A stretch of 64,000 nt of DNA from Aphelocoma coerulescens. Taxonomy: Eukaryota; Chordata; Aves; Passeriformes; Corvidae. Where the stretch lies: positions 49,308,078 to 49,372,077 of the forward strand of contig NC_091014.1 in assembly GCF_041296385.1 (NCBI RefSeq), written 5' to 3'. Both the position numbers and the translations under genes were made by a program. Position 1 is the first letter of the stretch, and every line of letters begins with the position of its first letter. The notes beneath the pieces are model-generated. The model was given only the letters and a program-made list of their open reading frames with translations. It made no database searches and was not told where the DNA came from. Below, in pieces: positions 12,149 through 61,800 of the stretch.

Positions 12149-12295
12149 GCATTAAACCTGAAACAAGGTGGATCCACATGGAAAAAAATGTAGATGATTA
12201 CTGGCCATCTGCCAAAAAGATGCTTGGGGATGTGAAATTTCTGGAATCACTGAAGCTTCATTTTGATCAAATATTCATATTCCGAGCCATGTGCC
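12149..12295 (+). pseudogene. dynein remnant exon 1: N-terminal half of the stalk-tip microtubule-binding domain
   Basis: The translation starts GIKPETR, continues VDDYW..AKKMLGDVKFLESLK and fits the dynein pattern GIKPER...EDYWG.SKK.LGD.KFLESLK, two codons shorter. That segment lies at the base and first helices of the microtubule-binding domain. It begins right after TTCTATTCTAAG, a usable acceptor, where family genes also start an exon at G-I-K-P. After FLESLK the normal TYDKDNIPP is not readable in frame, although ATATTC and ATTCCGAGCC suggest its decayed DNA with an indel. No stop interrupts 12,149-12,295. Confidence 0.85.
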
Positions 12296-12299
12296 AACA

Positions 12300-15200
12300 A
12301 TTTTACTGTTTAAAGACAAGGAGGTTGTGGAGGGGAATATTGACACCATTCTTCGCATGGGAATTTGCTTTCAGACTTCTTATAGAAAGGGGAATATGTT
12401 GCTAAAGAACAATGGAGTTAACATTAGGGACATAAAGAAAGGTGCAAAAGAATAGGAGAATTTCTTCCCTTGGGAAAAGGAGAGTGCGGGGAGAGAGGTC
12501 ATAGAAATGCGCTCAGCTTTGAAGTCAAGCATGACCATATGCATGACCATTTGGGAAATGCTTCATGTATTTTCATTTCCACAGAATCATTATACAGATG
12601 CCAATAGACAGAACTGGTTTTTTTTAACTGAGGGAGCCACAGTCCTACCTTAATAGACTCACATGCTCAGGAAGAATCCCAGGCTTGGGGTCCTGAACTG
12701 GAAAACCAGCCAACACCTTCTGATTGCTTTCTCTCTGTGATCCTTTACCCACTGCTCCCAAAACACTTCTGGGAGAATTTGCCTGCCGCATCCCATTCAG
12801 TCCTATCTGCATATTGCCAAATAGTTCACCAAAGATCCAATTTTGATCAGCAGACCATTTTTCCATCCCTGAGAATTGCCCAAAACACCTCTCATTTTGT
12901 CTAGTGGATGTGATAAGTGATCTTACTCAAACCCATATCAGGCCAGAAGGCAGGCAAAGTGTGGTTGTAGGATTTGTCTTCATTACTGCTCTAGTCTGGC
13001 TGCATGTCTTGGTTACATGGTGCCACACATGACAGAGGTGTTTGTGCCCTTCCCTAGATGACAGCAATGTCATTCCCAGGGCTTACGGGCGTGGGTTTGT
13101 CAGAGATGTAACCCAACTTCAACACCAGACCATGGGCAGAAATGGGGTTTTATACCTGCTCCTGAGTGCTCTAAACTACCGGGAGTTTGCATGTGGGAAA
13201 GGTCAAATACGGCTTGACAGTGGTCTATTTTTAACCTTTAATTCCCTTGCTGCCTAGGCTCTCCTGATTTCTACCTGTCTCCCCCTCCCTTATTCACACC
13301 CCAGCAATGATTAGGTCAGCCACTGATAGGATTTGGCTGTGTGTAACTGTGGTGTGAAAGTTTTCATGAACGTCAGAAGCAGCTGCCCAGCTTGTCTGGG
13401 AGCTGCACTCACCACTTCTGAACATTTCTGTGGCCTTCCACCTTCCTTGTCAGTGCCTTTCCCCGCACGTGTGCAGACCTAACGAGAAGTTGCTCCACAG
13501 ACAACCTTCTTCTCTCACCTAGACAGAGCTCTGTGTGGCAGTGCGTTTTACACAGGCTTCATATTCTCATCCCTTAATTGTGTGTTTAGCATTGACAACC
13601 TGTGTCTCCTGATGCAACACATGCCAACAAAATCCCCGTGACAAATACTTTAAAAAGGTAATTTTGGTTCTTTGTCTTCTGGCTTTACAACATTAAAATG
13701 CCAAGATGCATGCAATGGTGCATCTAAGCCATCTCCCTCTGGTTTAAAGCAAGATTAAATCAAGGCAAGAACCATGTGATATTTCAGTTTTCACTAGTCT
13801 TAGTGACTTAAATAACTGGCTTCCAAAGCCAAAAACTGAGTTTGCACCTTTGTGGTTACTAGTCCTTGATGAATGTTTCTTTTGTTAATTTATCTAACTG
13901 CCCTTTCAACTGCTTTGTACTATGGCCCCAGTAAAAAGAAATGGGAAATGCAGATTTAACTAGTAAGACTACTCACTCTCTTACTTTTTTGTATTGATAT
14001 CATTTGAACAGAGGTGTTACACATTTTTTTTTAGTCTTTCAGAACAACTCTTTTCTGAAATTAAGAGAAACATAGTAATTTCCAGCAAAAATATAGTATT
14101 TCGGGAAATGTAGGCGTTTCTGTAAGTAAGAGCTATGAAGAAAGGGAAAAAAAAGATTTCTTAGCTTTTAATACAGCACTGTAATGAAAGATTATCATGT
14201 AGAAAATTAATGACTGTGTTTTACCAAGCGGAACTGATTCTGCCTTTCTGCCCTCAGAGTGGCCATTTGATTTTAACCCTGCTAAGAGCATCACATAAAT
14301 AAAGCTACCTGTTGGGATGAGCCTGGGGAAAGGGCAGTGGGGCAGGCAGGGCTGGGGACACTGCTCTCACTCTGCAGGGCTGCATCCCCATTGCTCTCTC
14401 CACATGCACAGGACTTGAGGACTGGTCCCCATTGGCCCTTAATACACGTGTTCACCCCAGGGAGAAACAAGCCCAGAAATAATACCCATGTTTTATAGGT
14501 AGGAAAAGTGGATTTTTGATGCAGAAAAGTATGGATGAGCTGCACAAACATTGTTTTGGCAGAGAACTAACAAGCTGGGAATGCCAGTACTCTTTACAAA
14601 AGCTGTGCTCAAAGCAAAGGTGTTGCCAAAAAGGAAGGAGAAGATCATTTTGTGTTCTCCATTAAAAGTGTTTTTATGGTGCTCTCTGTTCTGTTACATA
14701 TTTTATTAGGATAATAATTTCAGTAAACTACATCTGGCTTTCCTGAGGGTGGTCCCCTCAGGTTAAACAGGCTGTCTAAAAATATCTCCTTTTTTTTTAA
14801 TGTTCCTCCTTTTTATCTTCCTTTTGATGGCTTTTCATTTAAATTATTTCCCCCCTTTTTTTAAGATTACATTAGCACATTTTCCCCCTTAATTCTATAA
14901 TCTTTTCAACTCTAGGTTCCTTTGTACTTTGTGCTTTCATAGCCTTTTCTTCTCAAGTCCTTTTCATGTTTCCTCCCTTTTGTTTTTCCCTGGGAGCCTT
15001 TATTGTCATTTTATTCTTTATTTTTAGTCTTAAGCTGTACAGTAGGAAGTAATGCTAAGAAAATTGAAAAGGAAAAAGCTGCATAAGCCAACGTAGTAAA
15101 GAACAGTCATATACTGAGCCACAGAACAACTTACAAATGAAGGCACAGTGGTGAAGCCCATATACTTTGGTCTCCATGGTGCAATACTCATGAAAAATAA

Positions 15201-17438
15201 AACAGTGACATTTCCTTTAAAAAAAAAAAAGAAAAAAAAACAAAAACCTAAAAAGTCAAGCCAATAAACCAATAAAAAACCTACACCTGTGTGTGACTAT
15301 GACTTTGCTATAAAAATGGCCTGGAAATGGACCTCTTTCCGATGACAATCTGAGCTAAATCCCCCATGCATTGAGATAAATCTATTTTTAAGGCGCAGAT
15401 GTGAGAGAAATTGCCTGGAGACTCCTACCAAGTGATCAGAACCTGACAGTGACTGATTTTGGCTTGTGCTGGAAGCTGACTTACTGTTTTATGAGTTAAC
15501 AACTTATTGTTTAAATGCTTTAATGCTGATTTATGCCAAGATTGCCTGCTTTGTATAAAGAGGTATAAAACCAGCAATCTTTTATATAAATCACATTCCT
15601 GATAAAGTCTCTTTTCAACTGAGGAGACAAACATGGCCAATTAATATTGGGAATTTGGCAGATTGTTGCCACTATTAAACTGAACTATCTCTGCATGCAT
15701 CAAATCCCTTCCTCCTATTTTACTTTTTCATGCTGCAACCAAAATTGAAGACAAATGGAAGTTAAAAAGAGGAGACTGAGCACCAGCTCCCAGGGATGAT
15801 GCTGCCTGGAGCTGAGGCTCCCAGTCTCACCTATCATGCAGTTGCAAATGGAAGCTGAGGATACCCAGCACCTGCCCAGAGCACTGGGACGGGGTTCTCA
15901 CTGTCTGATCTCCTCACCATGGCTGATGGAAAGACCTTTTCTTTCTTGCTTATTGTTTTTCTGTCCCTCCTTATGAATTGCTCCATTGGTGCTCTTGGTT
16001 CTCACCAAGCCCAGAGCCTTGGGCAGGTCCAGTCTCCATTTCACTTTTGGCAGAACTACTCCTTCACTCCTGTAGTCTGTGAAAGCCTTTATACCAGAGC
16101 TTATTTTGAAGATTTTGATGGCATTAAGTATTGCTAAGATATATACGAAAGCAATCTCAACGAAGCAAGAAATCTGCTTCAACATGACTTAGTGCAAAAC
16201 TATCAGCTGAAGCTATGAACTAGGAGGAAAGAACAGAACTGGGTTGTGGGATAAAGTCAGTTCAAGCATTTTCTCACCAGTGTTTAAACCATAAAGGTCA
16301 GGCAGGTTCTAGATACAACTAAAGCAACAGGCAGGAGGCCTGGACTGGACACCTTCTGGTGTCTAGAAGGAGTCACTCAGCAGCACTTGCAGCCAGCAGG
16401 GCATTGTCCAGATACAGACAGTGTCTCATCCACAGGCTTGACCTGCAGCTCAGGCTTGTCTTTGTAACCACTCCACTGCTCATCCCCTTTTTCACCAGGA
16501 CACTGTGGGAGGCAAAAGGCACCAAATGTCCAAAAGAAAGTCTAGATGGCTTCCACTATGGATGTGTGGGGAGGATGTGATTAGCCAGCTGCATCCAACT
16601 GTTCTACAAATATGTGCCCCCCAGCCAAAATTCATAAATAACCATCTAAGTTAAGTTCTTCAGTCAGAAACCCTGACAGAATGATGCTGTCATAAATTTT
16701 TATGGAGACATAACCAGAGATGATAAGTTCTTGGGTTATGGTGTTTATTAAAATGTTTATTGGGACCTTGTGGTACAGTAACAAATGATATCATAAAACA
16801 AATTGGGCTGTTTCTAATCAGTAAAACAACACAAAACTGGGATAGCTGAGAGAGATACATTCTTTTTATTTCAATTTCCATTTTGTGAAAAATTGCAAAT
16901 ATCTTTCTTAAATTCTTCAATCACTTTGAATTTAGAGCACTGTACTACAAGGATGCCTTTTCCCCTATCCCATATATATTTCACCATCTATGCTGTAACT
17001 ATTTTGGCCTACTTCAGAGGTGACACATCCCTGTCTAAAATTTTCAACAGTCATGGCTTATAAACTCAGAGGGGACCACTGTGAATATTTAATATGTCTT
17101 AATGTTTTACTCAGACTGTAACATCCTAAATTATTTTTTATTTGAGCTAGTTGTTTAAAGAGTTAAATTCAACATTGTTGAGGATTGCATGGTCAATCAT
17201 AAAATCTTGCAACCCTGCATTCTGTGAGTGATGGTCCCCTAGCCATACCCTGTTCTTTTTGAGATGCAGGTCCATCTCAGCACATCTATCTCTGTAGACA
17301 TTACTGATGTCCCCTGCGTTGGGCTGTCCTTTTTCTTCTCTATGCTTTCCTGTTTCCCTTCTCACAAACTTCTGCTCAACCTGTCTACCGAGACTGTAAA
17401 TTCTTTTTTGAAGCAGCTTTCATGGCCAGAGCTTTTGT
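12300..17438. other. intron-like sequence of the dynein pseudogene
   Basis: No gene or named repeat is visible. There is a pyrimidine-rich stretch around 14,780-15,000 and an A-rich run at 15,218-15,245. In family genes the two flanking exon remnants are adjacent, so the roughly 7.8 kb between 12.3 and 20.1 kb should be a single intron. Confidence 0.5.
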
Positions 17439-17497
17439 CAGCTTTTTAGGGCTGGCATCATGGTGCTGTGGGGCTGGGGTACAGCTGACAGCTCCAA
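17439..17497 (+). repeat. 59-bp dispersed repeat, copy 1
   Basis: This 59-base segment recurs at 19,167-19,225 in the same orientation with three substitutions and no gap, about 95% identical. The core includes catcatggtgctgtggg and acagctgacagctccaa. The flanks do not match. I do not recognise it as part of CR1 or of the LTRs in this window. Confidence 0.9.
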
Positions 17498-19225: not shown

Positions 19226-20112
19226 GTTCTCTTGAACCTCCCTTGCACATTCACAAACACACCAAAATTTTCTTTTGCAATCCCTACCTGCTAAAGCTTG
19301 CCTTTGTCCATGAGTCAGCCTTAGTGTGAAGTTGGGAAGATTTACAAAACTCACGTTGAAACTTGGTAGAAGGTAGCACCTTGTAACTGAGCAAAGAGGT
19401 CAATGCCATCAACCTCTCTGTAGAGATGTTTTATTTTTCTTAATTTAAACAACACCAATTTAGTCAACCAGGAGGCTCAGACCTGGCTCAGAGATACCAT
19501 GTGAATACGTCATTAAAAGCCAAAATTTGGATAATACTCGTTTTCAGCATTGCAGAAAGAAAGACCTGGGAAATCATAGCAACATTTGCCCATGTTATTC
19601 TCTAAATATTTCCTTGCTATCCCAATTCAGTCACACCCATAATTGATTTCCCTGTCCAGCAAAAGACAAAATTGTCCTTTTTTTCATTAAATGGCGGCAG
19701 GGGAGGGAAGGCAGGTACAAAAATAGCAAAAGGACAAAGCTGTACACTGACTTCGAGACACAAGATGAGGCAAGGCCAGAGTTCGCAGAGGAAATGGAGA
19801 GCTGGGGATGTGGCAAGGGGATTCCTGGTGTAGGTGGCATGGGGAGAGCCATGGGTGAGACAGACAGGACTAAACAGCTATGTTTGAGAAGGTCTAGAGG
19901 GGAAGAAGTGTAATCAGTGTTAATTAATTATGCTGTGTTTATTTTTACTCTGTTATTCAGTGCCCCAGGTGCTTTACTGGTGGAGAGGGAGGGCACACTA
20001 ATAAATTGGTATTGCTGCTTATTATTGTGTACTAATTTGTAGCAGCAGTTTGCGGGCTTTTTTTTTTTTAAGCAAGTCAATAAAGATAATATTCCTCAAA
20101 GGTGTTTTCCAG

Positions 20113-20235
20113 ATAAGAAGGCAGTTTATCAGTACTCCCAAATTTCATCCAGCTGTCATTAAGTGTGTCTCCTCTGCTTGTGAAGGGCTTTGTAGCTGGG
20201 TCAGGGCTGCTGCAGCTGGCTGCAAGGTTGCTAAG
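20113..20235 (+). pseudogene. dynein remnant exon 2: C-terminal half of the microtubule-binding domain
   Basis: After the acceptor GTGTTTTCCAG the frame reads IRRQFISTPKFHPAVIKCVS, then SACEGLCSWVRA. It matches the near-invariant dynein stretch IRE.FI..P.F.PAVIKNVSSACEGLCKWVRA, the end of the microtubule-binding domain and the start of the returning stalk helix. Next should come MEVYDRVAKVVAPK. Here it reads AAAGCKVAK and runs into a stop at 20,251. VAK sits at the right spacing, so this is substitution decay without a frameshift. The following CC2 stalk helix, about 60-70 residues, is missing: the next recognisable dynein sequence starts only 63 bases later. Confidence 0.87.
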
Positions 20236-20298
20236 GGAACCGCTCTGTCCTGAGATTCTTCTTATGCATCAAACTTTCATCTTGAAAAATTTCTGTAG

Positions 20299-36231: not shown

Positions 36232-36258
36232 CCCCCCCCCCCCCCCCCCCCAGCCCCC
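36232..36258 (+). repeat. poly-C run (20 C, then AG and 5 C)
   Basis: Twenty consecutive C at 36,232-36,251 are followed by AG and a further C5. The opposite strand is poly-G and could fold as a G-quadruplex. The exact length is unreliable in any assembly because such runs are hard to sequence. Confidence 0.9.
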
Positions 36259-36259: not shown

Positions 36260-38182
36260 ATACACTTCTGCTTTGATAGTTTGGGAATACAGTGCTAATT
36301 GAAAACCTTTCAGAAGAACTCAATCCTACTCTATAGTCTGCAAAGCTGAGACAGACATTTAAACAAAGTGAAATGGAACACATCCAGTTGGGGAAAGGCT
36401 GTTACTCATTACAACAGGGATTACAAGTACCACATGATCACCCATCTCCAAAATCCTCATTATCTGCCTGAAATATCTGTCAAAGTATGTTTTCTCTATA
36501 CAAGTTACTAGGAAAGGAAAGCATAGAAATCAAATACTGTTGTTGTTGAAAAATACCTGGTAGAAAAGATAGAAAGGAAAAATTATCCCATAATGTGGTA
36601 AAAAATAAAATTTAAAAAAAAATTAAAAAGAGAAAAGGAATAAGTAGCTGGAGAATATTGTTTAAGAGAACATAAAAGCTGAAATATATAATCAGGGTAG
36701 TGGAGATGGCAACAAAATGCACACAAAAGAATGAAGTGCTCAATGTTGTGTTGGGGGAACAGAAGGGAGAGATCCTGCTTAGAAGAACATATGAAAGTGT
36801 GTTTCATAAAAAGCATTATGGGTTCTTAGATTTAAAGACTATTGGCTCTTTCCAGAGGCTAAAAGTCTGAGTTGTTTCCCAGCAGTGTAGGTCCAACACC
36901 CAGGTTTAGAATACATGCGAGATTTTCAAAGGTGAAAATTTGGAGTAGGAATATTGAAAACATAAAAGCTCTTATTTTTTAACAACTGTGTACACCCATC
37001 ATGATGCTGTGCATCACACTTGTGTATAAAATAACCCAACATGCAAGGGCAGAGAGGGTTTGCACATAATGAGGGAGTGGGGAAGGTGTAGAAACAGAAC
37101 ATCTGTGATTCCTTCCTAGCTCTGGAAGCACAAACATATTCACTCCATTGCATAGCATCAGAAACACCAAACCTGAGTATCCTTCCTCTGAAAGCATCCT
37201 GGAATTCAAAAAATGAAGAAAGGAAAAAAGTAAACTGTGTATGGAAGGAAATCTTTTTTTAATTATTGCAGTTTTAACTATTTCCAGTGGCTGCAACTAA
37301 CCCGAGCGAATGCAATTTAGAAACATTTTCCCCTTTAACACATTGTTTAATGTTAATCGGCTATTCTCATCACTGCATGGTGTTAGTGGATACACCATCC
37401 AGCGTGTTTTATGGTACATTTAAACCAGACATCTGGAGAAATAGCCATCAGAGTACTTATCTCGAACACCTATTGTAAAAACAGACTTAATAAAATGAGA
37501 ACAAATAACAGTGCTGGCAATTACCCTTATCATGTGTATTCTGGCAAGAAAGGTCAGAATGTTGTTGGTCTGTATATATATGAACGGATTTTCTCTAATA
37601 CAGTTTCTCACCTGATTTCCCATAGGTTTTCAGAGGTTTTTGTTTGAGGGAAAAGGGGGAAGAAAAGTTAGGTTAAGCTACAATATGCTAGACAATAATC
37701 AAGCAACTAATATGAGAAGCTGGTCCCCCTACCAGGTAGTCATTTATATTAACAAAGAGAAAAATAACCCATCTGAGTCTAGAAAGATAAAAGGTGCAGT
37801 AATTTCACAGATTTTACAGATATGTACAGATATGGACAGAGAAGTCACAGTCTCAGCTTTACTATCACACCAAACAACTATGAATTCAATATTATTTTTT
37901 GTTATAGATCTATTCCAGGGTACATAATTTTGTTGGGTTTTTTTTTTTTCAGATGGTTTCAGAGCAGAGCTAATATCTCTTGTATGCAGCTCCAAGGATC
38001 CCAATGCTCAGTAACTCCAGAAGTATAATCAGATAGGAACTAAAGCAGTAAATACGTGGAAATAGTTTAAATCGTTACACACGTAAGTCTCCTTTTCTCT
38101 CCGTTTAGAGCCAGGTTTAGGGAATTTCTATGAAGATGGTAAAGGGGGATAAAATCAAGTTGTTGGGGGAGGGGAATCTCAA
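36260..38182. other. unassigned intron-like sequence
   Basis: No gene or known element is visible. The stretch 37,280-37,480 is less AT-rich and follows an acceptor-like TTAATTATTGCAG, but its translations resemble nothing I know. Confidence 0.4.
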
Positions 38183-38299: not shown

Positions 38300-39274
38300 A
38301 ACAGACCTAAAAGAAAGGGAAAAAAATAAGTCAGACTAAACCTTCAGAACACTTCTCCTCCCCCCATCTTTCTCTCTTCTCCCACTGACAGTGTAAGAAG
38401 ACAACCCTTGAGATTTTCAGTCAGTTTACCACTTCTATAATAACCCTTTTTTAGTTCACTTAGGGAGAGGAGTCTCTCTTGCGCATGCTATGGAGACATC
38501 TCCACAAGAAGTTCTCTCATGGCCTCAGTATCACAGCGAGACAGCCGCCCGCGTTGGTTCTCTGCTCACATGTGAGAGTCCCTTCCCCCGACTTACAGCT
38601 TTCCCCACAACTGTTTTCGAGGGTCCAATCTTGAGCTACTGGGGTACCATTTTAAGGTTGAGCTGTTCAGAAACAAAGGTTCTCTTCACCTATCTCTGGG
38701 AGCATCTTCATCTCTAGGAACAGAGGTCTTCTTCTTCCCTGGGAGCAAGAGTCATCACTTTCATCTCTCTCTGTTCAAGCTTCTCATCAAATCACAGCTA
38801 CTTCAACATTTGCTTGTTTCAGCACAGGTACTTTTGCTCATGGTTGCGGTATGAACGCTCCACCCCCCATGCTTTCATGAAATTACAATGGGTACTCTGA
38901 TGTATCATAGTCCATCACCATAGCTTTACAACAGAATTCAGCTTCTAGGTTTGAAGCATCTCCTCTTTCTCCTCTCTCAGGGTTTCAGCTCTTCCTTCTT
39001 CACTGACTTTGGTGTCTTTATGGTGTTTTCTTCACATGCTTTCACCTTTCCTCTTCCTCTGACTTGGGAGAGGATTGATGTCTGCAGGCTTCATCTGTTC
39101 TGGAGAATCTCACAGCACTAAAAGGGTTAATCTCACCCAGGCCTTGCAGCTGGAATTCCCTTATCGCTGTTGGTCACACGATTTTTGCTGGGCAGCGGCC
39201 TCAGATGAATCTCGGCTGCACTGGGTGAGGGCCGGCCTGGCCAAGCCACGCTGCGGGGTCACCCGCACGGGGCA

Positions 39275-39376
39275 GGGCCGCAGGTGGAACAGGGCCGCGG
39301 GTAGAACAGGGCCGCGGGTGGAACAGGGCCGTGGGTGGAACAGGGCCGCGGGTGGAGCAGGGCCGCGGGTGGAGCA
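39275..39376 (+). repeat. 17-bp GC-rich minisatellite inside the LTR, six copies
   Basis: Six tandem copies of gggccgcgggtggaaca with one or two substitutions each occupy exactly 102 bases, then degenerate. The period is not a multiple of three, so all three frames cycle through the repeat without stops. This explains the Pro/Arg/Gly-rich open frames on both strands here. Confidence 0.93.
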
Positions 39377-39869
39377 GGGCCGCACGGCTCCGGGGTGGCT
39401 GTCTGCCGGCCGGCCCAGGCCGCACTGAGGGGGCTGTGCTGGGTGTCCAGCGAGCAGAAGCGGCTGGGATCTCAGCCAAGCCACGCTGAGGCCGACCCGG
39501 CCGGGCCACGCCAAACAGAGCCCAGCCCAGCCCCGCTGGGCCGCGCCGCGGGTTCCCAGTTACCTGTCCAAACAGCGGAACCAAGAGAGCTTTCCCGGGC
39601 TTTGTTCATTCTTAAATGTGGATCACAGAGGCATGTCAAGCCTCTTAAGTGGCTTTAAAAAGTTGCCAATATTCAAACTAGCCAGTTGATTGGTTCTCTT
39701 GGGTCTAGAGGAAGCTGTAAGCACCTCTTTACAAGAGAATCACTTCCGTGGCTGATGGAGCCGTCTTTAACTAAAACCCCAAACTATGCTAAACCATTAC
39801 ATCCATCCCATTCATATCAGTTTGATGATGGCAGTGTCAGCAACAGATACCCAGAGACTGGAGGGAGAT

Positions 39870-41190
39870 CACAGGTCAGCAGGAGAGCACCTGAATAGCA
39901 GCACAGAGGAATGCCAGTCTTTCCAGCCAGTAAATTACCTTATGGGGGCAATGCCTCTATGCAAGCGAATGCAGCATGAGAATCAAAGAAGAGGAGTTAA
40001 AGGTGTGTGCAGGCCTTCAGGGCTGTGATCTCATTGACATCAGAGAGATGTGGTGGTATGGCTCTTTGGCAAGAAGGAATGGAAGGATACAGGCTCTTTA
40101 GGCAGGATGGGCAAGGGAGATGAGGAGGGGGCATCATCCTCTGTGTCAATGACCAGCTGACATGCATGGAACTCTGCCTGGGGATGGATAAGGAACCAAT
40201 CAAGGCCTTACAGGTCAGGATTAAAGGAAGCTCAAAGACAGGTGACAGAATTATGAGGGTCTGCTACAAGCCACGTGACCAGGAAGACCAAGCAGATAAG
40301 GTCCTCTATAGATGGATAGGAGCAGCCTCACATTCACAGAATTTGACCCTCATGGGGAATTTCAACCACTCTGATGTCTATTGAAAGAACAACACAGTCA
40401 GGTGCAAGCAATCCAGAACGTTACTGGATTGCCTTGATGATAAATTCCTTCTTCAAGTGATAGAGCATCCAATAATGAGAGGTGTTCTGCTGGACAAACA
40501 AAGGGTCCTGGTGGGGGATGTGAAGCTCAAGGGTAGCTTGGCTGCAGTGACCATGAAACAGTGAAGTTCAAGATCCCTAAGGCAGCAAGGAGGGCACACA
40601 GGAAGCTCATTACACTGGATTTCAGGAGAGCAGACTTTGCCTCTTCAGGGATCCTCTTGACAGGGCGTGGTCAAAGAAAGCTGTTCAGTGTTCAAGGATC
40701 ACATTCTCCATACTCAGGAACAATACATGCCAACAAAGAGGAAGTCATGTAAAAATGCCAGGAAATCTGCTTGAATAAGCAAGGAGGTTCTGGGCAAACT
40801 CAAAAACAGAAAAGAAGCCTACAGAAGGAAGAAAGAAGGACAGGTAGCCTGGGATGAATACAGAGAGATTGTCTGAACAGCCAGGAATCCGGTTAGGAAA
40901 GTCAAAGCCCTGATGGAATTAAATCTGGCTAGAGACATCTAGGGCAGTAAGAAAAGCTTCTATAGGTGATGAAAAGAAGGATAGGGAAAATGCGGTCCAT
41001 CTCTGGAAGGAAACAGGAGACCAGTAAACCAGCATATGGAGAAGGCTAAGGTACTCAATGACTTTTTTGCATTCTTCACCTGCAAGTGCTCCAGTCACAG
41101 TGCCCAAGGAGCAGAAGGCAAAGGCAGGGATTGGGAGAACAGAGAACTGCTCTCTGACTACATAAGGAATCTGAAAGGGCACAAGAGTTA
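39870..41190 (+). mobile_element. CR1 LINE 5' portion: ORF2 endonuclease and linker, inactive
   Basis: The reading starts near 39,950 with CLYANECSM and EEELKVC (the usual CR1 ORF2 opening CLYTNARSM...EELE). It runs through the APE-type endonuclease with LMGNFNHSDVY (family GDFN..DI), LLDCLDD.FLLQVIE, and TLDFRRADF, and on to the linker with a KARRKAL-like stretch and [14 protein letters not shown]. Stops and frameshifts are scattered. The sequence ends at the codons for RNLKGHKS, just before the RT domain would begin. Confidence 0.93.
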
Positions 41191-41437
41191 AAAAGGCCCT
41201 GAAAGAGAGCTTTAAGCTGAATATATTAGGAAGAAATTATTTACTGAGATGGCAGAACACTGGAACAGGTTGCCCAGAGAAGCTGTGGATGCCACATCCC
41301 TGGCAGTGTTCAAGGCCAGGCTGGATGGGGCTTTGAACAACCTGGTCTAGTGGGAGGTGTCCCTGCCCATAGCAGGGGGTTTGGAATGAGATATTTTTAA
41401 GATCTCTTCTGACCCAAGACATTCCATAGTTCTAAGT
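41191..41437 (+). mobile_element. CR1 LINE 3' end joined directly to the ORF2 linker (RT deleted)
   Basis: Directly after the linker the sequence jumps to the CR1 3' end: aatatattaggaagaaatta (RT C-terminal), ggaacaggttgcccagagaa, ggccaggctggatggggctt, gtgtccctgcccatagcagg and a degenerate attccatagttctaag tail. The whole polymerase segment between is missing. The same orientation and subfamily-like wording on both sides suggest one element with an internal deletion. Confidence 0.88.
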
Positions 41438-42252
41438 CCTTGTCCTAAAAACTAAAAGTGTATTTTTTCCAGGATGACTGTAAGAATATTAATCTGGATT
41501 AATTCGGGCATAAACAGAATGTTTGCAAGTTGCAAAACTATATTTCCTTACATATGCATTTTAATTCTGGAATAAGAATGCCCTTCTTCTGTTTGATATA
41601 AATACAGGATCTGCTTGGACAATTAATCCAGCATAGCTATCATAGTTAATTTCCCCTGGTAGATACACCCCAAACAAAGGAAATTATCTTTTCTTATAAA
41701 TTGTAGATAAAGAGATAGATAATAGATGCTTTCCCCACAAATTATATTGATGAAAACTTAAGCTTGCCACCTAATTCAAGTTTATTTCCCTCTAGAATCC
41801 ATCCAGAGTACAAATACTTGCCTGCATTCATGCTTATATTTCCTTCCTTTTTTTTTTTTAAACAATACTACAAACACTACAGTGCATCATCATATTGCAT
41901 GGGCCAAGAAATATCTTATGGTCCCAGGAAAATGAAAACTAATTCTTAAATATTGCAGCAGACTGACCTACAGGTATACAGCCTTTAATTGCAAGTTTGA
42001 TGAATATGTTAGTGAAATAAAAAAAAAAAAAACAAGCATAAATCCCTTCTCAGATGAACTTCATTTAGCACCTACACTATTCTGAAATTACAACCTAAAA
42101 TGGACTGGAATTTCACTAACGTTTTTTTTGAAACTTATAATCTATTTTAATATCCTTTTATAAAAACCAAGCAAAACCAGGCTGTTATTAGACAGCAACC
42201 TTATTCAGATGATGCTCATGTTTCTTGACTATTTTTTTCCTTGATTTTACAG
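41438..42252. other. unassigned intron-like sequence
   Basis: A T11 run lies near 41,850 and an A13 run near 42,020. A CAG/GATCTGCTTGGACAA segment near 41,600 faintly recalls the dynein DQLLG codons but continues with no match. Confidence 0.4.
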
Positions 42253-42445
42253 AGAAGAGGCAAAGGAATTAGATTAAATTTGGGGAGTATTCTCATTGTT
42301 GCGAGGAAACATCCTGGAGGACTAATGAGCTATTAACATTCTTTCCTCAAGCAAGAAGATGTCCCAGGAGATACATAAGAAACAAGAAATAACAAAGACT
42401 GAAAAACAAATTGATGAAACTAGAGATGGCTGCAGACCTGCAAAC
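42253..42445 (+). pseudogene. dynein remnant exon 6: KEIEDKILE to IDETR..YKP, with three stops
   Basis: This is the clearest exon. It follows acceptor GATTTTACAG. One frame, without any frameshift, gives EEAKELD, then RGNILED, AINILSSSKKMSQEIHKKQ and KTEKQIDETRDGCRPA. Family proteins read KEIEDKILEVLS.S.GNILEDE.AI.VLSSSK.LSEEIS.KQ......TE.QIDETR.GYKPVA, in the helices following AAA5. Three in-frame stops break it: TAA at 42,275 (for Lys), and TAA and TGA at 42,323-42,328 (for the residues after ILED). Apart from one missing codon at ELD, spacing is as in the family. Confidence 0.94.
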
Positions 42446-42760
42446 AGCTTTTCACACCATCACAGTTACTGTTTGAATTAAATAGTTTAGATTTGCAAAG
42501 AGGTGGAAAAATCCACTCATTTCTTTAAAAATCCTTGTGAAAAACATATTTCACATTAAATCCAATTTTAAAATAAATACTAATGCTTATATTTAGTCTG
42601 CAAAATCATACCTAGTGTAATAGTAAGGAGTGTCTAGGGGACAAACCACAACAGAATTTGAAACATTGCTTTTAATACTTAAGCTGGTATTCATTGTTTC
42701 AGTGCTCACAACTTAGGTTTCCAATGTTTCATATAGGATTAGACTGCAAATCAGTCAAGT

Positions 42761-42840
42761 ATGTTAATTAGCTTCTCCTCTAACCTGGTTTACATCAATT
42801 CCATGTATCAATACTCTTTGGCCTGGTTTGTTTATCTCGC
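42761..42840 (+). pseudogene. dynein remnant exon 7: PMYQYSL..WF motif
   Basis: The frame reads SNLVYINSMYQYSLAWFVYL. The family pattern is SDLANIEPMYQYSL.WFINL, a near-invariant stretch between AAA5 and AAA6: MYQYSL and WF are exact and the spacing is unchanged. It lies about 315 bases after exon 6, its immediate neighbour in the protein. After VYL the match fades. The conserved Pro before MYQ is Ser here, and upstream, the IFFC part is short by about one residue. Confidence 0.88.
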
Positions 42841-42849
42841 ATCAGTCCT

Positions 42850-45800
42850 ATTTACAGTGGTGAAAAGTCTAATTCATTACACAGAGGATCAGCGATGTTA
42901 CAGATCATTATACATACAGATGTATTTAAAAATACACACCATTATAGCAAATTTAGGAAATGAAGGAGCTTGGAACTATCAAAGCCTTTAGCAGACGTAA
43001 AAATGCAAATATTTCATGAAAACTATTTAAAACCAAGCAGTCATTAAACCATACTGGGATTTGTCCTTGGTGAAACCTGCTGCTGCAAACACCCTGCTAT
43101 AATTCTATTTTTTCTCTCCTCACTGCAGGCTGCTGTTGATGTGTAGGTTCAAGTCATAAGCTTCAGCATCATTATGAATATTCCCCTTCTCATAAAGGAC
43201 ACCCTCATGTAAGAAATCTTCTCAGCATCCCAAAATATTACAAAGAAACAATAATTAGGGCTAATTACTCACTCCCAGTACACTTATTTGTGGTTTACAA
43301 TTTCAAAAGAGTGAATTGAAGACAGGTGCATAAAATAGGCTTAATGAGAACATCAGAAAATAGTTGCTTTAGCTGTAAATTACTACTTTTAAATGCTGTA
43401 TTTTATTTTTAGAAGAGAATGTGTTGCTCGTAAAAGATATAAAATTAGTAGGGCTAGAAACTGAGTTCTTTTATTTCACCCCAGAAAAGGCATAACATAC
43501 TACCAGTGGTACTGAAAGCTTGCTAATGACATAATATTAATATTCACTAATACCTGGTGGGGTAAAGTAATATTGTTTGGCTTTAGCTGTAACAAGCACT
43601 GATTCCCACTGTCTCTCTCAAGGAGTTTCATTCACCTTCTATATTTAGTGCTTGCTTTTATGATGCCAACTACATCATTTCTCCTAGTATGATTATTTTT
43701 CCCACCCTAACTGGATTTAATGAGAAACTCTTCTTTGCTCTATCTTTCCTTTTGGTTTTGTCTTCTAAGCAGGGACACCACCTTCTTCTGCTTTTTCCTT
43801 CCAATAAAATCCGTCATTCAGTATTAAGTTTCTGCCTTTCTCCTGGCTCAAACAGAGATTCTCCTCTTTTTTGATATATAATTTTCCTCCCTTTCTCATG
43901 GCCTCTATAAATACTGGTCTTTTTCTCAAGGCTCCCACCTACAGGCTCTTCCCTTTTGACCTAGCAAGGGACAAAGCCTTCGGACTCCACACCCATGCCT
44001 TCCACTTGTCACTGGCACTGAGCATAAATCATTGATGTAGAGTGAAGAGATTCCCCTCTGTCTCCTGCCTTTGTTATGCCTCATTTTGCAGGGAGTTTCT
44101 ATCAGCTAGATGCTAGATCAGACAACAAGAGAAGAGATAGCAGCTGAAAGCAAAAAAGCTTTAACCTGTGGTGAGAGGTTTGCCTTTTAGCTGCAGATAA
44201 TTCCTCCTTGCTTTCCTCGTTCTCCTGTTTGAGCACTTCTGCAGCCTCAGGTCAGATTTGCAGATGCCAGAACCTAACCTTTGTCATTGAGCAAAGGCCT
44301 GAGACGAAAGCATTCTCTGCCTTCTGATTATAGAAATGTATTTTGATCACAGTTAATCTGAGCCAGACAAAAAACACTTCCCAAAAGATAAAAAACTTCA
44401 ATTTTATTAGTTATACTGAATACCTCTTAACTTTGTTTCCTTTTGCTTATGTAGTTACTAATAACATAGATTAACTTTCTTTCCCTTTGAGGAAGGTGTT
44501 AGCATCTCCAGAAATCATTGTGAAATCATTGCATAGCTGGGTGCCTACTTAGTTTCCTGGAGGTCCCAAGGCTATCCTCTGCTCTAAGGCAAGAACAAAG
44601 TACCCTAAGACGCAGGAAGTACTGCCTGAAATTCCCTGGCTTTTGTACTGGTTTTGGCCTGGGAGCTTTATGGTCCTCAGGTTTATGAAGGTACAAAATG
44701 GGCCTTGATTAAAAAGAAGCAAGGAATTACCAGAAAAATTATGATGAACTGAAGGCTGGTTTCATACCTCCAGCTGTGGCCCACACACTCCCTGTTACTT
44801 ATGCGGCTGGAAGGCTTCCCCATTAATGCTGATGATGGATTATCACTAAAGCTTCCTGTAAACACAGGATATGTGTAGCTATGTATGTGTGCGTGTATGT
44901 GTTATTTTTTCCCTCAGCTAGATTCTCTCTCACAACAGTAAGCACTTGAGGTTTGGTTTTATTACAATACACTCTTCTGTCTATCTACAATCATAATACC
45001 TCTGAACTTCATTAGGTAATCAGATTTAGGATGCACTTTTTTCAATTTGCCATACAGAGCTGATACAATTTCTTCAACATTTTCATCTCTCAGCATAAGC
45101 AGTAATGAATAATGTCCTCAAAACAATAGGTAGAATTTCTTAAATCTTTATACATAATTGAAATTTCTAGTATCTTTTAAATTGTATTATATCTGGATGT
45201 AAAATTGGTCCTAGATTTTAAAAAGTCTATCTTCAACATTCAATATTTGATAGAACCTCATTGTTGGCAGCAAGAACTGCCTCTTTGCCTTGTATATACT
45301 CAGGCTTAAGCAAAATCCTTCTAATTGCTTCTTCCCTTTAATTTAACTGTAAATGAAAAAAAATTGTGGCATAATTTGGAAAATAATTTCCTATCCTAAT
45401 TTCTTATGGCCAGCATCCTGCATCTTACAGATTTCTGACTGACCAATCATTTGAATGTGTTAAAAATTCTCAATGCAAAAAAATAAAGACAGAAATGAAT
45501 ACTGTGTTCTCAGCTGTTTCTTAGACTAATCTGGGGGGAAAAGAGCATAATTTCATTATGTTGTGGTTGTATGAGGCTATCTGTACCAGATCCTGAAGGA
45601 TGTACAGCACTATTTGGTGCAAGTACTGATAAAATTTCAGCAATATTCTCTTACCTCACATATTACATAGATGTGCTAGACCTCTAATACACTTCTTGGC
45701 ATAGTATCTCCTTACTAAACACACATTCTTTCTCTAGGTCCCTAGCAAAAGCAAGCCTAATCCAAATTCTTTGTAACTCTTCACATTGCATCTTCCAGAT

Positions 45801-47324
45801 GTCATTATCACTTGCTCCTGGTTTCTTCTATCAGCTGTCACAGATACACTGGAAATGTGTCCTGTCCTGAAGGTTTATGCATACTTGGAAAAGGATATCG
45901 AAGTCTGAAGCATGGGGATTGTCCCAGCATGTCCAGAGGATCCCTCAATGCAGATGTAAATACTCAGGAGAGTTTAGTGGGGTCTCAGCCCAAGTGGCAT
46001 TGGATCTGAGCTGTGTGTCTGTGGCTGCCTTGCAAAAGAGCGAGCCAGCTCTTGGCTTTTTGGCCCACTGCTGAGGTGCAGAAATTTGATTTTTTGAAAT
46101 CTGATTATTTGAACATCTTCTTTCGCGGTATCATGCTTTACTGTCTGGTTTGCTTTACTGTGCTAAGGACATTTTTGTTTTTTCAATTTTTAGAGCAAAT
46201 GGGACCATCAGGAGAGAGAGTTTCCCATAAGGAAGGATAAAGGTTATCAGCACAATAAAAATTAACACTAAATGCTGTACGATGCTCTCTAATCTGTCCT
46301 TCTGTATGTTGTGGACTATTAAATGTCACTCCAGTAGTTTGTAAAAAGCTCATAGACTGTAGCTTTACATTTCCCACAGAAAGCCATGTTGTGGGTCACT
46401 GAGGGGAGCGCCTGAGGTCTCACAGCTACCCAGGGCTGACAAGGACAGGAATGCTTTCAGAGAAACGCCCTCATAGCCATGTCTGAGCCAAGACACAATG
46501 TAAAGGAGGGTTCTCCTGCTCCTCCAGCCTCCCAACATACTCCTTTCCAGGCTTGACCTGGCCATCACAGCTACCCAGATGCTGGACAGATGCCCAGAGG
46601 GTAGCTGTGACCCCTGCAAAGCAGCAGCCCTTCCATTCAGGTCCTGCTTCTGGCGTGGTAGGTTGAGTAAAGAGCCCTGCTTTGCTGCAAAGGCACACCA
46701 GGACCCAAAGAACAAAAATATTTAAAGAAATCAAATGTAGCCCAAGAGAAAAAATTCCTTATTTACCTTTCAGGTGAGCATCTGAACCCAAGTTTTTCAA
46801 AATTATTTCTGCCTGCATGTGAAGCTGTAAGCACTGGTGCCCTAAAGGAAGAGAGGAAACAGAGAGTCATGCATCCACAGATCTCAGGGCCAGGAATAAA
46901 CACCGCAGCCCACCTCTGTTCCTTCATAAAAAAGTCAGAGCCAAGCATATTAAAATTTGGTATTTTATCAGATGATCAATTTTAAACAGCAGCTTGAGCT
47001 TCAAGTAGTCATGTTCAGGAAAAAATGGAATTAATTTATTTCTTTCTTTCTCTTCCTTGTGCCACTCAAGTGTTGTTTCAAATAGGATTATTTTGTCATT
47101 CAAGTTTCAAGGTTAAGATTTGCTCCTATTTATGAATCTAAAATCCTTCAAACCAGTAAACTATCACAGTAATTCCAGAAATATAATGAAAAAACTGAAC
47201 TGAGAATTGAGAATCCTGTGGGCCACAAGGAATGGAATATATTAACATTCACCTCTAAATGCTTTTCTCAGTTGCTTATATATTAAAATACAATAATAAT
47301 AAAAAAAATCCTTGAAGCATCTGT
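42850..47324. other. intron-like sequence between dynein remnants
   Basis: No further exon, named transposon or gene is visible. A TG-rich tract (atgtatgtgtgcgtgtatgt) lies at 44,881-44,901. Confidence 0.45.
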
Positions 47325-47330
47325 GTGATT

Positions 47331-47507
47331 GCGTGTTGGTCTCCTTTTGAGAAACACAAATTACTCTTTATATCTCTTCTCTGTGAGGGTTTGCAGCACA
47401 ACAAAAGCCCAGTAAAGAGCCTTGAATGGCTCTTCCTTCTCACTGGGGGAGCAGCTTTGGAGTGCCCACATGCTAATCCTGTCCTTACCTGGCTGAAAGA
47501 TAAATGG
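47331..47507 (+). pseudogene. dynein remnant exon 8: LFEKHKLLF to LLTGG..NP..WL, cut by poly-G
   Basis: The frame reads ACWSPFEKHKLLFISLLCEG, then SLEWLFLLTGGAALECPHAN, then PVLTWLKDKW. Family proteins read NVCRSLFEKHKLLFSFLLC...., EWRFLLTGG.ALDNP..NP...WL..K.W. More than half the positions agree and length is preserved, with no stop inside. The conserved Trp at the end is swallowed by a 17-G run, after which no dynein sequence can be read. An in-frame TGA lies just upstream of ACW at 47,326. The TWL ending resembles my memory of DNAH3/12 more than DNAH7, but that is weak evidence. Confidence 0.92.
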
Positions 47508-47522
47508 GGGGGGGGGGGGGGG
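47506..47522 (+). repeat. poly-G run (17 G)
   Basis: Seventeen consecutive G begin inside the final Trp codon of the exon-8 remnant. Such a run in place of coding sequence is strong evidence against function and can form a G-quadruplex. Its exact length is uncertain in any assembly. Confidence 0.92.
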
Positions 47523-50500
47523 ATTCTCTGACTTTCCACCCCTCCTCTGGCTGAATGAGTCAATTCTGTTCACATGTCAGTTAAAGTATTTTGTTTCCCT
47601 CTTTCATTTTTTGCCTTTGAAGAGAGAGTAAATTGCAACAACCCATGCCTATTATTAAGACCTGAAGAGAAAATGTTTAAATTAAAGATTGTACAAACAT
47701 TTAAGCAGCAGTGTAATAAGCTCCATTTGGGAGGCAATGTAGCAAGTTTCTTATTTTTTATGTGGTTCATTACTTAAAACTAAATAACAATTGCTAGTTT
47801 TATTGCTGCCATTTCACAAATGCTGGGATCTTCTCTGTTGGTGTTGAAATCTAGTATGATTTCAATATTTTGTCTCCTTGATGTTTTACTCTGCTAGTTT
47901 AATATTGATCAGCAGATACATATTGTAATCTCTGCTTTCTGCAAGATGTAACAGAGCAAGAAAACACAAAAAAAACCCCTCTGGAAATAGCCTAACCACA
48001 CTGGTTTTTACTGTAACATAAGGCTTGCATCTGAGACTACCATATCATCCCTCTGGTTTTATTCCACTTTTTACCTTGTGGGAATTACTTAATGATGGGA
48101 GGCAAACCTTTGCTAAAAGGCAATGTGGTGTTTAAACAGTTAGATCAAAATTCCAGCTAACTGTACTTATCATTCCTGAAAAGGACTGTAAAAGGAAGTG
48201 CCATGTTCCAAAGCTGCTATTTTGAAATACGTTAGAAACAGAGTAAATGGCCAATTTTATCACTTGCCCATTTGTCTGTCTATATATTTCTGTCTGTCTA
48301 TTTACTTCTCAGATGCTCTTCTCATTCCAGTCATCAGAAAGAAAGTAACATTTTTTTCCCTCAGAAGTGTTTTTTTGCACCAAACACTTGTCACAGCCTC
48401 AAGCATTTAAACAGAGCTCCTGACAGAGATGCAGTATTACTTTGGCTTGGGTTATGAAATGGAATGCCATGAATGACTGCCTGGAATAGCCTCTCTTTCA
48501 TGAAAGATGCTGCAGGTGACCCAAGGACAGTTTGTGCCTTTCATGAATGTCATGTAGGTGGAAAAGTGAAACTTCAGCACAAGCTAAACTAGCCAGGGGA
48601 CTGGGATAGAAGAAAATATTTCAGAATCTCTGTTGCCTTCTTGTTGGCTGGGATGGTAGGAAAGACACGAGGTATGCACAAGGAAGTTGGGGGTATGTTT
48701 GGGTGCAGAACCTGGCAGGAGAGACAGGGTGCCAGGAGTAACACCCAGTTAATGTCAATTACTTAGCAAGAAGGAGAGGGCTTTTTTTCAGGTGGTTTAT
48801 TCACAAGTGAGAATTCCTGAAACTGCACAACTTTGAGCAAATATTCTAGAAGGCTTGTGGAGTCCCTCCTACAATTTTTATCTTCTTGTTGAAATCTCAC
48901 AGCTGGTAATCCCATAAATCTTCTGAAAAAGAAAAGGTCTGTTTGTTTTTCCAAAACTTTTTTTCAAATATTGCACTATCAAAATTTCTCAGATGTTCCT
49001 TTCCTGAAACCTTCAGTGGAAAGCATCCTAAGAAAGCATTGTTTGATGTAGTACAAGAGATCATGGTTTGGGAACTACTAGAATAAGTGAGAGAATGAAT
49101 GAACAAAGACTCTAAGAATTTTTTCTAGCTAAAAGGCAGGCAGGCCAAGAGAGAGACCCAGTGCTTCTCTGCCCTAGGAACAGCAAAGTCACTCACAGGA
49201 CTTCTCTGGACTGGAAATTACTTTAAAAATGCAAAATGCTTCAGCACAGTCCCACAACAGAACAATTCTTGCTGTGAGGAGATATCAACTTGCTTTGTGA
49301 AAAAGATCTTGATATTTGGGATAGTCTATAAACACCAAGAAGAACAAGCTGGGAGTGCAACCAAAAGCACAAACCCATTCTTGCAAAGTACAGATGGGGC
49401 CTACAAAAATACCAGACCAGAAGGATTGAATAAGTAAGTTACTCCTCTCTCTCACCCTCTCCCCCTCTATCTGTGTCTGTTTTTAACCACCCTGAGCTTT
49501 AGAAATGCCAGCTTTTTTAATCTCTAAAACCATCTGTGTAGCTTTTCTCAGTGGTATCCTTTCACTTACATCCTGTGTCATTGGTTTGTCTGTCTCTCCT
49601 GATGTTGATAATGTTGTTAGCAGCTTCTCTTGAAGCTTCCTATGAGCATACTTTGAATGACAAAGAGGTGTAGGGGAAGGACAGGCAATGCAAAGCAAGC
49701 ACAGAGCTGATTTATATAGCCTTGTGCATATGGAATAGGTTTCGTTCTGTCTTGGTCTATTTTTCTCTAGCAGCAAAATTTTTAACCACAGAGAATTTTG
49801 CAAGAATGGTCGACGTCTCCCCAGCCCCTTCCCCTCTGCCCTGCAGCAGGCTCCTCAGGGAGGACCTCAAGGCACTGTAGAAGTCTGGCTATTGTGATAT
49901 CATTGTTGTTTATGCAATTATTTGATAAAAGTCTCCATGATGCTTTCTCAAGCTGCATAAGAAAAGGGCCCTTTGGCTAACCACCTGAGAGAGGGGATGC
50001 TCTTAAAATCAGGGTGGTTGTCTGTTTTTCTTTTTTCTGAATAACAAATTAACTGTTTAGTTGCCATGTAATCCTGATATTTAAATACTTCCTGGTTAAT
50101 AATAATTCCTTCCTTCCACACTTCTCTCTGTGTCAAGTCTTCCTTTTTGCAAAGACTAAGTGCCCCAAAGGTACTTAACTGTAGCCAAAAGTCTAAGGGC
50201 ACTAAAATCCCTTTATTTCCCCCACTCCTCCACAAATCCACACTAGCACTTTTCCTTGAAAATAGCACATTTTGCTGTTTATGTCTCTCTGGTGCAGAAA
50301 CTGTGCTGGTTGTATGAGGAGTGGTTAATACCACAGTTAACCTCTCTCGATCTTCCTGCCACGGCAGATGAGTAAGCCTCAAGATCAAGAGGCCAGGGAA
50401 TAGGGTGGTGAGGAAGCTATCAGCTCTAAAAATATATTCTGTTTTGTTCTGTTCTGGTCACACCATGCCATTTCCATTCCATCCATTCTGTATCATCAGC

Positions 50501-55914: not shown

Positions 55915-56096
55915 GGGAGGGAGAGAGGGAAAGAAGGCAGGAAGGCAGGGAGGAAGGCAGGGAGGAAGGGAGGAAGGGAGGAAGGAAGGCAGGAAGGCAG
56001 GAAGGAAGGCAGGAAGGAAGGCAGGAAGGAAGGCAGGAAGGCAGGAAGGCAGGCAGGAAGGCAGGAAGGCAGGAAGGAAGGAAGGAAGGAAGGAAA
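55915..56096 (+). repeat. T-free GGAA/GGCA satellite-like tract
   Basis: For 182 bases the + strand has no T: it is built from GGAA, GGCA and GGGA units (ggaaggcaggaaggcagg and variants). Stop codons need T on one strand and A on the other, so all + frames are open and the minus strand frames too. The long Gly/Arg/Lys-rich and Leu/Pro-rich open frames here (103, 144 and 90 codons) are therefore artefacts. The near-homopurine strand may form triplex structures. Confidence 0.95.
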
Positions 56097-59000: not shown

Positions 59001-61550
59001 AAACATCACTGCTGGTCTTAAGAAGCAGTATCACTTCTCAAGTGACAGCTTGTGGCTAGTCTTCATTGTGCTATATCAGGAAGTTAAAACAAGCAAAATT
59101 GCTATTGTCTTTTCTATCTGTTGAACCTGCCACTCAGTGCCATACTGGTGGTAACTACAGCCTGGTAAAGCACCTTAGTTATCTGTGATAAATTTTTATT
59201 TTGCTCTTTTGGTCTTTCCTTCATTCACTGTAAATGAATGCTCCTTAGTCAATGCTCAGCTGTTCTTCCTCAGCCTAACATGCTTACACAGGATGAAGTG
59301 CTTGATGCACTGCATCTCTCAAAATAAATATTGGAGCCTTGGAGCAGAGATATTATCCTTTCACCCCATCTTTTACTTATTCCATGAAAATGCTATTTCC
59401 ATGGAGGTATTGCAGTGTTCTTTAAAATGCATAAATGTGGGTTTCATTTCAGATCTTTCAAAGTCAGGAACATGCTCCTGGGAAAGCAAAGGTCTCACAG
59501 TGAGTGCAGTGCACAGGGATCACTGTGATTAGGCAAGTTTCATTCCTGGGTATTGAGAGCTCTGAACTGTAATGCCCAAGTTCTAAATAGACAATTAAAA
59601 TTACAGTAGTAGTATGCCAAGTGAAATTCTTTAATTGTCTTAGATATCCTCCTACTGCACCTGGGCATTTATCTCCTTTACAAAAAAAAATCTTTTCTAA
59701 CAATTAGGAAGGTGAAGTAAGATTAGAATGTGGAAAATGAAGGATAACAGAAGAAATCTCAATAATAGTTCCTTCCTTTTCATCCTCATGGAGTGATGTG
59801 CTCTGTCAGGACGAAGGTGAGGGATTGTTACTGCCCTTGTTTGTATGAACATAGGTGGAATAGTGTGGGTAGAGCCCTCTTCCACAGCCATAGAGAGATG
59901 TGAGTTCAGGGCTTTCTGCCCATGCTTAGACAACACCTCTCCTAAATAATATTCATTATGAGAAGAGAGTCAACAGCTACATTATCAAGCACCTCACAGC
60001 ACAGTGCAAAGAAATAAACTTGGAACTGTGAATTAAATGTTACTTGTCACCTCCAGGCCATATATTCAGACAGTTCTTTAGCTTATCCATTGGTCAAAAT
60101 TAAAGTTGGATGTTTCCACACCCTTAACAATAACATTAGAAATTTTGGTGTGTGATTTAACGGCATCTAGCCCTGCTCTCTGCAGGCCTAGGGTGCAAAA
60201 GCACAATATTTTGTCTTTTGTATGCCAATTACATTAAAAGTAATATTGGTGTAGTGGCACTATTTTTGAAACCCTCTACTAGAAGGGCTTGGGACCATAG
60301 ATTCCATTATCAGGCTTTTACATTACCCAGGAGAAAGTAACTACAAACATAAAGGTATGAGTTTTAATGGGGACACGATCAGAAGAGGAAAAGCCTCTAC
60401 GCTTCATTGCATTCTCAGCTGCTGATTTTAAACAGCACCCACAGTAAGGGATCAATCCCTGGTGCTCCGTGGACTGTGGGAGTAAGAAAGACATCTGAGG
60501 ATACACACTTCAGAGAAATAGCAAGGAGGCCTTTAGGACCACAAATATAATTAGCTGAACTCACCTGTGTGACACTAGTACAACCTCCTTGGATCCCAAC
60601 AGCTGGCACAAGGTCACAGGAAGCAAAGAGTTGCACTTTGCATGTTAGCACTGAAATTTGTTTCTCCGAAAGGAACTTGTGAGAAGTGATGATGACAAGG
60701 TATAAAGCTTATTTTGAAAAGAGAGGAATTTTTGAAATCTAGGCTAGACGTTATGACAAATGAGAGTGATATCAAGATTCAATAGCTATAGAAAGATAAG
60801 AAAAGCTGAAGACATGATAAAAGAAGAGACTTGTACAGTAGGAAACTGACTGCTAGAATAGTACCACATGAGGAAGCTAAGAATACTTTATTGCACAATT
60901 AAAGTTACAGGGGATGAGGGAAAAGTAGCTTAGTGTTCTTCAAGTCAAAGCTAAAGATGGTGTACATGATCAGAAATTATACCATTCCTTCTTGGAAACA
61001 AGATTTAGTGGAGATTTTTAATAAGGCTGCTCTGTAATGTTCTGCTAAAATAAGCACAGAAGAATCAGGTCGCCCTGGCTTTTTTTCAGAAGTGCTCTTG
61101 TCTTTTTACAGAAAAGCTTTCCTTGTCCTTCCACAAATTGTTATTGTCTGTCATTGGCCACTACCATTTAAAAAGTAGCATGTTTCTCTTAAGTGCTTTT
61201 TGTTCGCAGAGCACTTTGAACCTAAAAGAAATGGAGGCCTTTAGAAAGCTAATGGAAGTTTAAGGAGCTCAACACCTGTGAAAAGAAGGCTCTGGTTTTC
61301 TAGTTTCTCTCCACTCCCTTTTAAGCTACTTTAATAAAATATCATGTTGAATTGCTCACAGTAATGTACACACACAGGACCCTGGCTGAGCAATGCTTCT
61401 CATCTTCTGTTTCTGATGTTTGTGACACGGCCCTTTACTTTTGTTTCAGAAAGCTGAGAGGCGAGAGCAAGACTTTCTGTAACAACACAGTAAAGACAGG
61501 AACGTGAAAAGCTGTACAACAGATTCAGAATAAGCAGTCACCTGATGACT
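56097..61550. other. intron-like sequence
   Basis: I found no gene, CR1 tail or LTR edge in this stretch. A short (CA)n tract lies at 58,728-58,748. Open frames are short and unrecognised. Confidence 0.45.
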
Positions 61551-61559
61551 GTTCCATTC

Positions 61560-61800
61560 CTGGATTTATGCTGAAATATGAGGGAGAGTGCCAATGCATT
61601 TGTTGAATGCATAAAATCTATGAGGCTGTCTGTCAGGTGGGAATCAGTCAGGAAGCCTGGAGCAAGGATACCAATAATTATGCCGTCAAAAACCTTGCAA
61701 TAAGCAGCAGAATATTTTATTTGCCGTCAATCCTACAAAAAGTCTTTTATAACATCTGTGTCAGCAGATTTCAGGTCCCAAGAGGTGCCACACTTTGAAA
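61560..61800 (+). pseudogene. dynein remnant exon 9: AAA6 CHLA-WMP to SILQ segment
   Basis: From 61,589 the codons read C-Q-C-I-C-stop-M-H-K-I-Y-E-A-V. The family reads CHLA.SWMP(TLE)KICEEV: Cys, Met, Lys, Ile, Glu and Val agree, TGA at 61,604 replaces the TGG of the conserved Trp, and three codons are lost. Further on, L.........SILQ at 61,727 fits LTSYPSEKFPVSILQ with equal spacing, followed by VPRG where PPKG is expected. Between the two blocks there are about eight extra codons. The segment lies in the right place and strand for AAA6. The call is weaker than exons 6-8. Confidence 0.6.

Follow-up and report, generated by a model that had tools for sequence, protein, structure and literature searches.

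A 64,000-nucleotide stretch of the Aphelocoma coerulescens genome (the window hereafter; contig C2:49308078-49372077, + strand) raises the question of whether a dynein heavy-chain gene died at this locus, which gene it was and how far its remains extend. The earlier note, made from the letters alone, read short + strand segments in the window as a dynein motor running in order from the stalk tip. Such segments were indeed detected: dynein heavy-chain matches from profile and tblastn searches at window positions 12184-47504 follow the order of the protein and all lie on the + strand, with profile scores above the best of 40 shuffles. Comparison with DNAH3, DNAH7 and DNAH12 specifically returned collinear + strand matches.

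Sequence searches

Window coordinates (w) correspond to C2 position 49308077 + w, negative values lying upstream of the window, and the assembly searched comprises 1.33 Gb in 660 contigs. The window was searched using tblastn with bird DNAH3 and mammal DNAH3, DNAH7 and DNAH12, and with a four-sequence profile (C-half). The bird DNAH3 query was a 784-aa open frame on contig C16 that matched, among PDB chains, DNAH3 (8j07_g3, 1236 bits) and 9fqr_Xx (1261 bits; this chain carries another molecule name). Upstream sequence was searched with a single-sequence profile (N-half) built from bird DNAH3 exons that cover AAA1 through the stalk, picked by eye on C16 and checked against PDB. In 40 block shuffles, the maximum was 5.4 bits with the C-half profile and 6.7 bits with the N-half profile; for the C-half profile, reversed sequence reached 1.8 bits and five shuffles 4.8 bits. 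Minus-strand scores did not exceed 1.6 bits in the stretch searched first or 3.8 bits in the longer one. The part of bird DNAH3 that forms the stalk tip is covered by PF12777 in a domain search; the other domain labels (AAA1-AAA6) follow the general anatomy of dyneins.

Dynein segments in the window and beyond

The window segments, with profile scores from 13.9 to 56.5 bits (Table 1), carry the stops, lost residues and poly-G run that had been put forward as marks of a dead gene, along with some splice-like edges. In-frame stops, four in total, are confined to two segments, with none in the remaining window segments in the listed frames; the AAA5 exon is broken by a frameshift at 36.39 kb; and about 12 residues are lost between 42838 and 42876. 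The poly-G run (~47506-47523) lies directly 3' of the last window exon, and a poly-C run occupies ~36232-36251. Because the segments lie kilobases apart and several retain splice-like edges, this is an unprocessed pseudogene and not a retrocopy, as had been proposed for an inner-arm (DNAH3/7/12) dynein. Some of the gaps between segments may be insertions.

Table 1. Relic dynein segments along contig C2 (window coordinates unless prefixed C2)
Feature	Position	Strand	Score or identity	Remarks
AAA1 relic exon	C2:47497537-47497677	+	77% (fetched letters: 80% over 45 aa)	0 stops
AAA2 relic	C2:47520710-47520880	+	44% (fetched letters: 44% over 57 aa)	1 stop
AAA2 relic	C2:47521468-47521776	+	36% (fetched letters: 37% over 105 aa)	3 stops
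Relic exon	-35135 to -34890	+	61 bits (N-half profile)	
Relic exon	-26113 to -25931	+	69.8 bits (N-half profile)	
Weak relic segment	-16455 to -16393	+	5.7 bits, under the 6.7-bit shuffle maximum	tblastn E 0.007
Relic exon	-3711 to -3604	+	14.2 bits	in-frame TGA
Relic exon	-2894 to -2766	+	17.7 bits	
Relic exon, microtubule-binding stalk tip part 1	12184..12267 (profile match to 12270)	+	15.9 bits, columns 3-30	58% identity to mammal DNAH3 over 26 aa (tblastn)
Relic exon, stalk tip part 2	20110..20244	+	36.2 bits, columns 40-84	62% identity to mammal DNAH3 over 45 aa (tblastn); initial residues KDNIP in a different frame immediately upstream (by eye)
Relic exon in AAA5, first frame	36277..36399 (profile match to 36402)	+	22.8 bits, columns 302-343	1 in-frame stop in 36280-36396
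Same AAA5 exon after frame change	36389..36499 (profile match to 36631)	+	31.8-34.8 bits, columns 339 on	donor-like GTATGT at 36485
Relic exon, AAA5 continued	42251..42439 (profile match 42272-42529)	+	56.5 bits, columns 422-508	3 in-frame stops in 42251-42439; acceptor-like polypyrimidine-CAG immediately upstream; 42251-42271 tblastn only
Relic, AAA5 continued	42746..42917	+	13.9 bits for 42746-42838	tblastn 42779-42838 and 42876-42917, the latter tblastn only
Relic exon, AAA5-AAA6 junction	47313..47504	+	46.2 bits, columns 537-600	49-51% identity to DNAH3, DNAH7, DNAH12 (tblastn)
Relic exon, AAA6 start	+76871 to +77005 (profile match to 77038)	+	9.3 bits	

Several other features of the window were recorded. 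By eye, the gap at 42.44-42.75 kb might be flanked by a target-site duplication. At 39273-39383 there are 6.5 tandem copies of a G+C-rich 17-bp repeat, and at 55928-56095 a GGAA/GGCA-type array; translations of ~2050-2720 and 40124-41440 resemble remains of CR1-type LINEs. Rfam models at gathering thresholds gave no matches in the window.

The extent of the relic had to be redrawn. Its presence over 12184-47504 stands, but the proposed span of about 50 kb with an end near 61,800 does not: between 47505 and 64000, nothing exceeded 1.5 bits with the C-half profile and no dynein segment was found, the next exon, the start of AAA6, lying beyond the window. The sequence from +77 to +94 kb yielded no C-terminal exons, its highest score being 1.9 bits at 79.7 kb. 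On the upstream side, the exons located 3-35 kb before the window correspond to AAA3 and AAA4, and further exons lie 1.75 Mb away. The first two AAA3 exons are free of stops and their splice edges, judged by eye, fit in phase; those of the third may fit as well.

A 440-aa query spanning AAA1-AAA2 gave 83 matches genome-wide, with 85 of 85 candidates scored, and on C2 these fall only at 47497537-47521776. This 5' half (47.497-47.522 Mb) has the same strand as the window relic and lies ~1.75 Mb upstream of it. In the 34 kb immediately upstream of AAA3, which are mostly satellite, no AAA1-AAA2 match exceeded 2 bits. A query for the 3' motor hit C2 in four places, all within the window, among the 63 of 83 candidates scored. 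Taken along one strand, the fragments thus read AAA1, AAA2, AAA3, AAA4, stalk tip, AAA5 and the start of AAA6. Two separate partial dynein relics, or copies of parts of different genes, could flank the satellite by chance; the sequence read at 47.5 Mb amounts to only ~700 bases, and this locus might have an AAA3 copy of its own. We consider such a coincidence quite unlikely, given that the halves are complementary, share a strand and follow each other in order, with AAA1-AAA2 found on C2 only near 47.5 Mb and the 3' motor only in the window, at the scoring depths given above.

The disabling changes, namely the four stops and the frameshift in the window, the stop at -3.7 kb and the stops in the AAA2 relics, are set against an AAA1 exon and two AAA3 exons that are stop-free, which counts against reading the gene as dead. 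Part of the gene might still be expressed, for example, if the open AAA1 and AAA3 exons gave a short product, the AAA3 splice sites matching in phase. We regard this as highly improbable: the AAA2 relics in between carry stops, the P-loop reads APTGLGKI, and a predicted transcript joining these exons would contain 1.7 Mb of satellite.

A satellite array between the two halves

The interval between the halves was probed with 14 spot samples of 200 bp. The sample at 47.540 Mb does not match the satellite, but the other 13, from 47.600 to 49.215 Mb, match it at 96-100% and are free of N; none of eight control samples matched. The repeat units measure 177-184 and 373 bp and include degenerate TAGGGT-like runs. 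At the downstream end of the array, upstream of the window, one stretch is wholly tandem and the next is so over its initial 2.7 kb; a longer period of 4757 also shows there, and the array ends near -47.3 kb (C2 ~49.261 Mb). If continuous, as assumed from the 13 of 14 samples, the array spans 1.66-1.72 Mb (~1.7 Mb).

The same satellite was found on C4:35.59-37.17 Mb (1.6 Mb; 120 match rows at 87-94%, the 40 candidates scored out of 255 all lying on C4). The query, 220 bases long, was a unit pieced together from the samples, and very common words were skipped, so C2 itself is absent from this listing. The samples over C2:47.60-49.215 Mb reveal a homogeneous tandem array on the megabase scale, and a centromere is suggested by this size and homogeneity together with the comparable extent of the matches on C4; judged by its sequence, the ~1.7 Mb array is probably that of C2.

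Satellite arrays are hard to assemble, and contiguity here rests on spot samples; accordingly, the array could reflect a scaffolding error, or be satellite of a non-centromeric kind, between the halves of a plain dead dynein gene. This seems unlikely to us, considering that 13 of 14 samples across 1.6 Mb yield the same N-free satellite and that the gene pieces on the two flanks complement each other and are of one kind.

Relationship to DNAH3, DNAH7 and DNAH12

Against PDB chains, the composite relic scored best with DNAH3 (363 and 349 bits), followed by DNAH12 (303 and 302) and DNAH7 (299 and 290), all others reaching at most 275 bits. Identities over aligned residues were 185/347 with mammal DNAH3, 174/347 with bird DNAH3, 170/346 with DNAH7, 160/347 with DNAH12 and 142/327 with bird DNAH12. 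The fragments of the relic follow the order of the motor domains in these three proteins and, by sequence similarity, the relic is a member of the DNAH3/7/12 inner-arm group, which Table 1 of PMC6008050 places opposite Chlamydomonas dyneins a, b, c and e. Its break points differ from the introns of DNAH12, and it is unbroken across the DNAH12 intron positions at profile columns 332, 461 and 565, which counts against a simple story.

In a tree of six sequences including the relic, built without an outgroup, the relic joins DNAH3 (support 95) but falls outside the clade of mammal and bird DNAH3 (90). The AU test gave p values of 0.007 for placement with DNAH7, 0.065 with DNAH12, and 0.088 and 0.090 for placements within DNAH3; the SH test rejected no placement (p 0.097 for DNAH7), and the KH test gave p 0.024 for DNAH7. 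The position outside DNAH3 (90), seen in one genome, would fit a fourth paralogue older than birds, branching off before mammalian and avian DNAH3 separated, but the DNAH12 and within-DNAH3 placements keep AU p values of at least 0.065. The SH and AU results, from so small a tree, weigh against this explanation.

Simple orthology was considered for each of the three genes. The relic is not the DNAH3 orthologue, the genome having its own DNAH3 locus on C16; by the AU values for placements within DNAH3, it could be a DNAH3 duplicate. DNAH7 orthology is opposed by the AU and KH tests and not by the SH test, and a separate DNAH7-type relic is present on C9. DNAH12 orthology is rejected with a DNAH12 locus on C14, the tree alone giving the AU value above.

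Other genes of the group in this genome

A search for an intact copy elsewhere, which had been suggested as a check, showed that DNAH3 (C16) and DNAH12 (C14) look intact over the sequence read, and that DNAH7 (C9) is decayed. For DNAH3, this holds from AAA1 through the end of the gene. Compared with the relic, with its stops, frame change and pieces kilobases apart, bird DNAH3 has a single 784-aa open frame; this frame, at C16:15502958-15505108, runs from the stalk tip to AAA6, a part that takes ~12 exons in DNAH12. The C14 locus (9.104-9.114 Mb) is 71% identical to mammal DNAH12 and 58% to DNAH7, and is open over the 9.8 kb read.

With the mammal DNAH7 query, there were 40 matches (39 of 152 candidates scored), headed by C16 (DNAH3) and C14 (DNAH12). 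It also matched a stop-free exon on C9 at 68%, and a separate search found another C9 piece with a stop. At C9:10430001-10450000 (- strand), ten DNAH7 alignments, 38-85% identical, follow in order, with two stops and at least two frame changes in the 20 kb read. As far as these 20 kb show, DNAH7 is apparently a second decayed gene, distinct from the window relic. Had DNAH7 been intact, it should have headed the matches to the DNAH7 query among the candidates scored, which supports its decay. DNAH7 is listed among expressed genes in turkey (PMC9324027); hence, its loss is not common to all birds.

A proposed split of a dead gene by a probable centromere

We consider it likely that the locus holds a dead DNAH3-like gene, the fourth of the DNAH3/7/12 group, with its halves split by a probable centromeric array. 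Under this scenario, an intron-bearing inner-arm axonemal dynein heavy-chain gene would have decayed in place, and satellite DNA would have landed or arisen between the AAA2 and AAA3 exons and then expanded to ~1.7 Mb, leaving the 5' half (AAA1, AAA2) and the 3' half (AAA3 to the start of AAA6) on opposite flanks of the array. With an array lying between complementary halves on the same strand, the landing or emergence of satellite inside the gene, followed by expansion, is the simplest account. We infer that the two halves were once one gene, that the array is the centromere and that it postdates the whole gene. More tentatively, and with somewhat less than even confidence, we propose that the centromere of C2 is an evolutionary new centromere born in an intron of this fourth DNAH3-like gene, and that its seeding was perhaps lethal to the gene. 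The site of this birth would then be marked by the fossil gene, with AAA1-AAA2 on one chromosome arm and AAA3-AAA6 on the other.

Each element of this scenario has a known counterpart. In-place gene death in birds has been described for STK33 in neognaths (PMC4509753); the relic resembles STK33 in having decayed in place but is seen in one genome and has a satellite array between its halves. Evolutionary new centromeres are reported in the Drosophila obscura group (PMC6795482), where the likeness is a putative centromere at formerly ordinary genic DNA; the difference is that the site here is marked by two dead dynein halves and that its centromere status is predicted from sequence. In a honeyeater, chromosome 1A is described as split at a point that separates the first ~50 Mb from the last ~20 Mb of its zebra finch counterpart (PMC8963300). 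Our guess from the contig order is that C2 corresponds to songbird chromosome 1A; if so, the honeyeater split point would fall near the array, which is only suggestive. Among the papers listed in literature searches, none was recognised as describing the present locus, and the term 'DNAH' is absent from the main text of PMC4290089 and PMC12954441.

If the proposed history is true, fossil exons flank a probable centromere on both sides, and a relative with joined halves would represent the pre-satellite state and would date the birth of the centromere. With both the window relic and DNAH7 decayed, the latter judged from 20 kb, at least two genes of one inner-arm dynein group would be dead in this genome, and these two losses can be compared with the structure of cilia and sperm.
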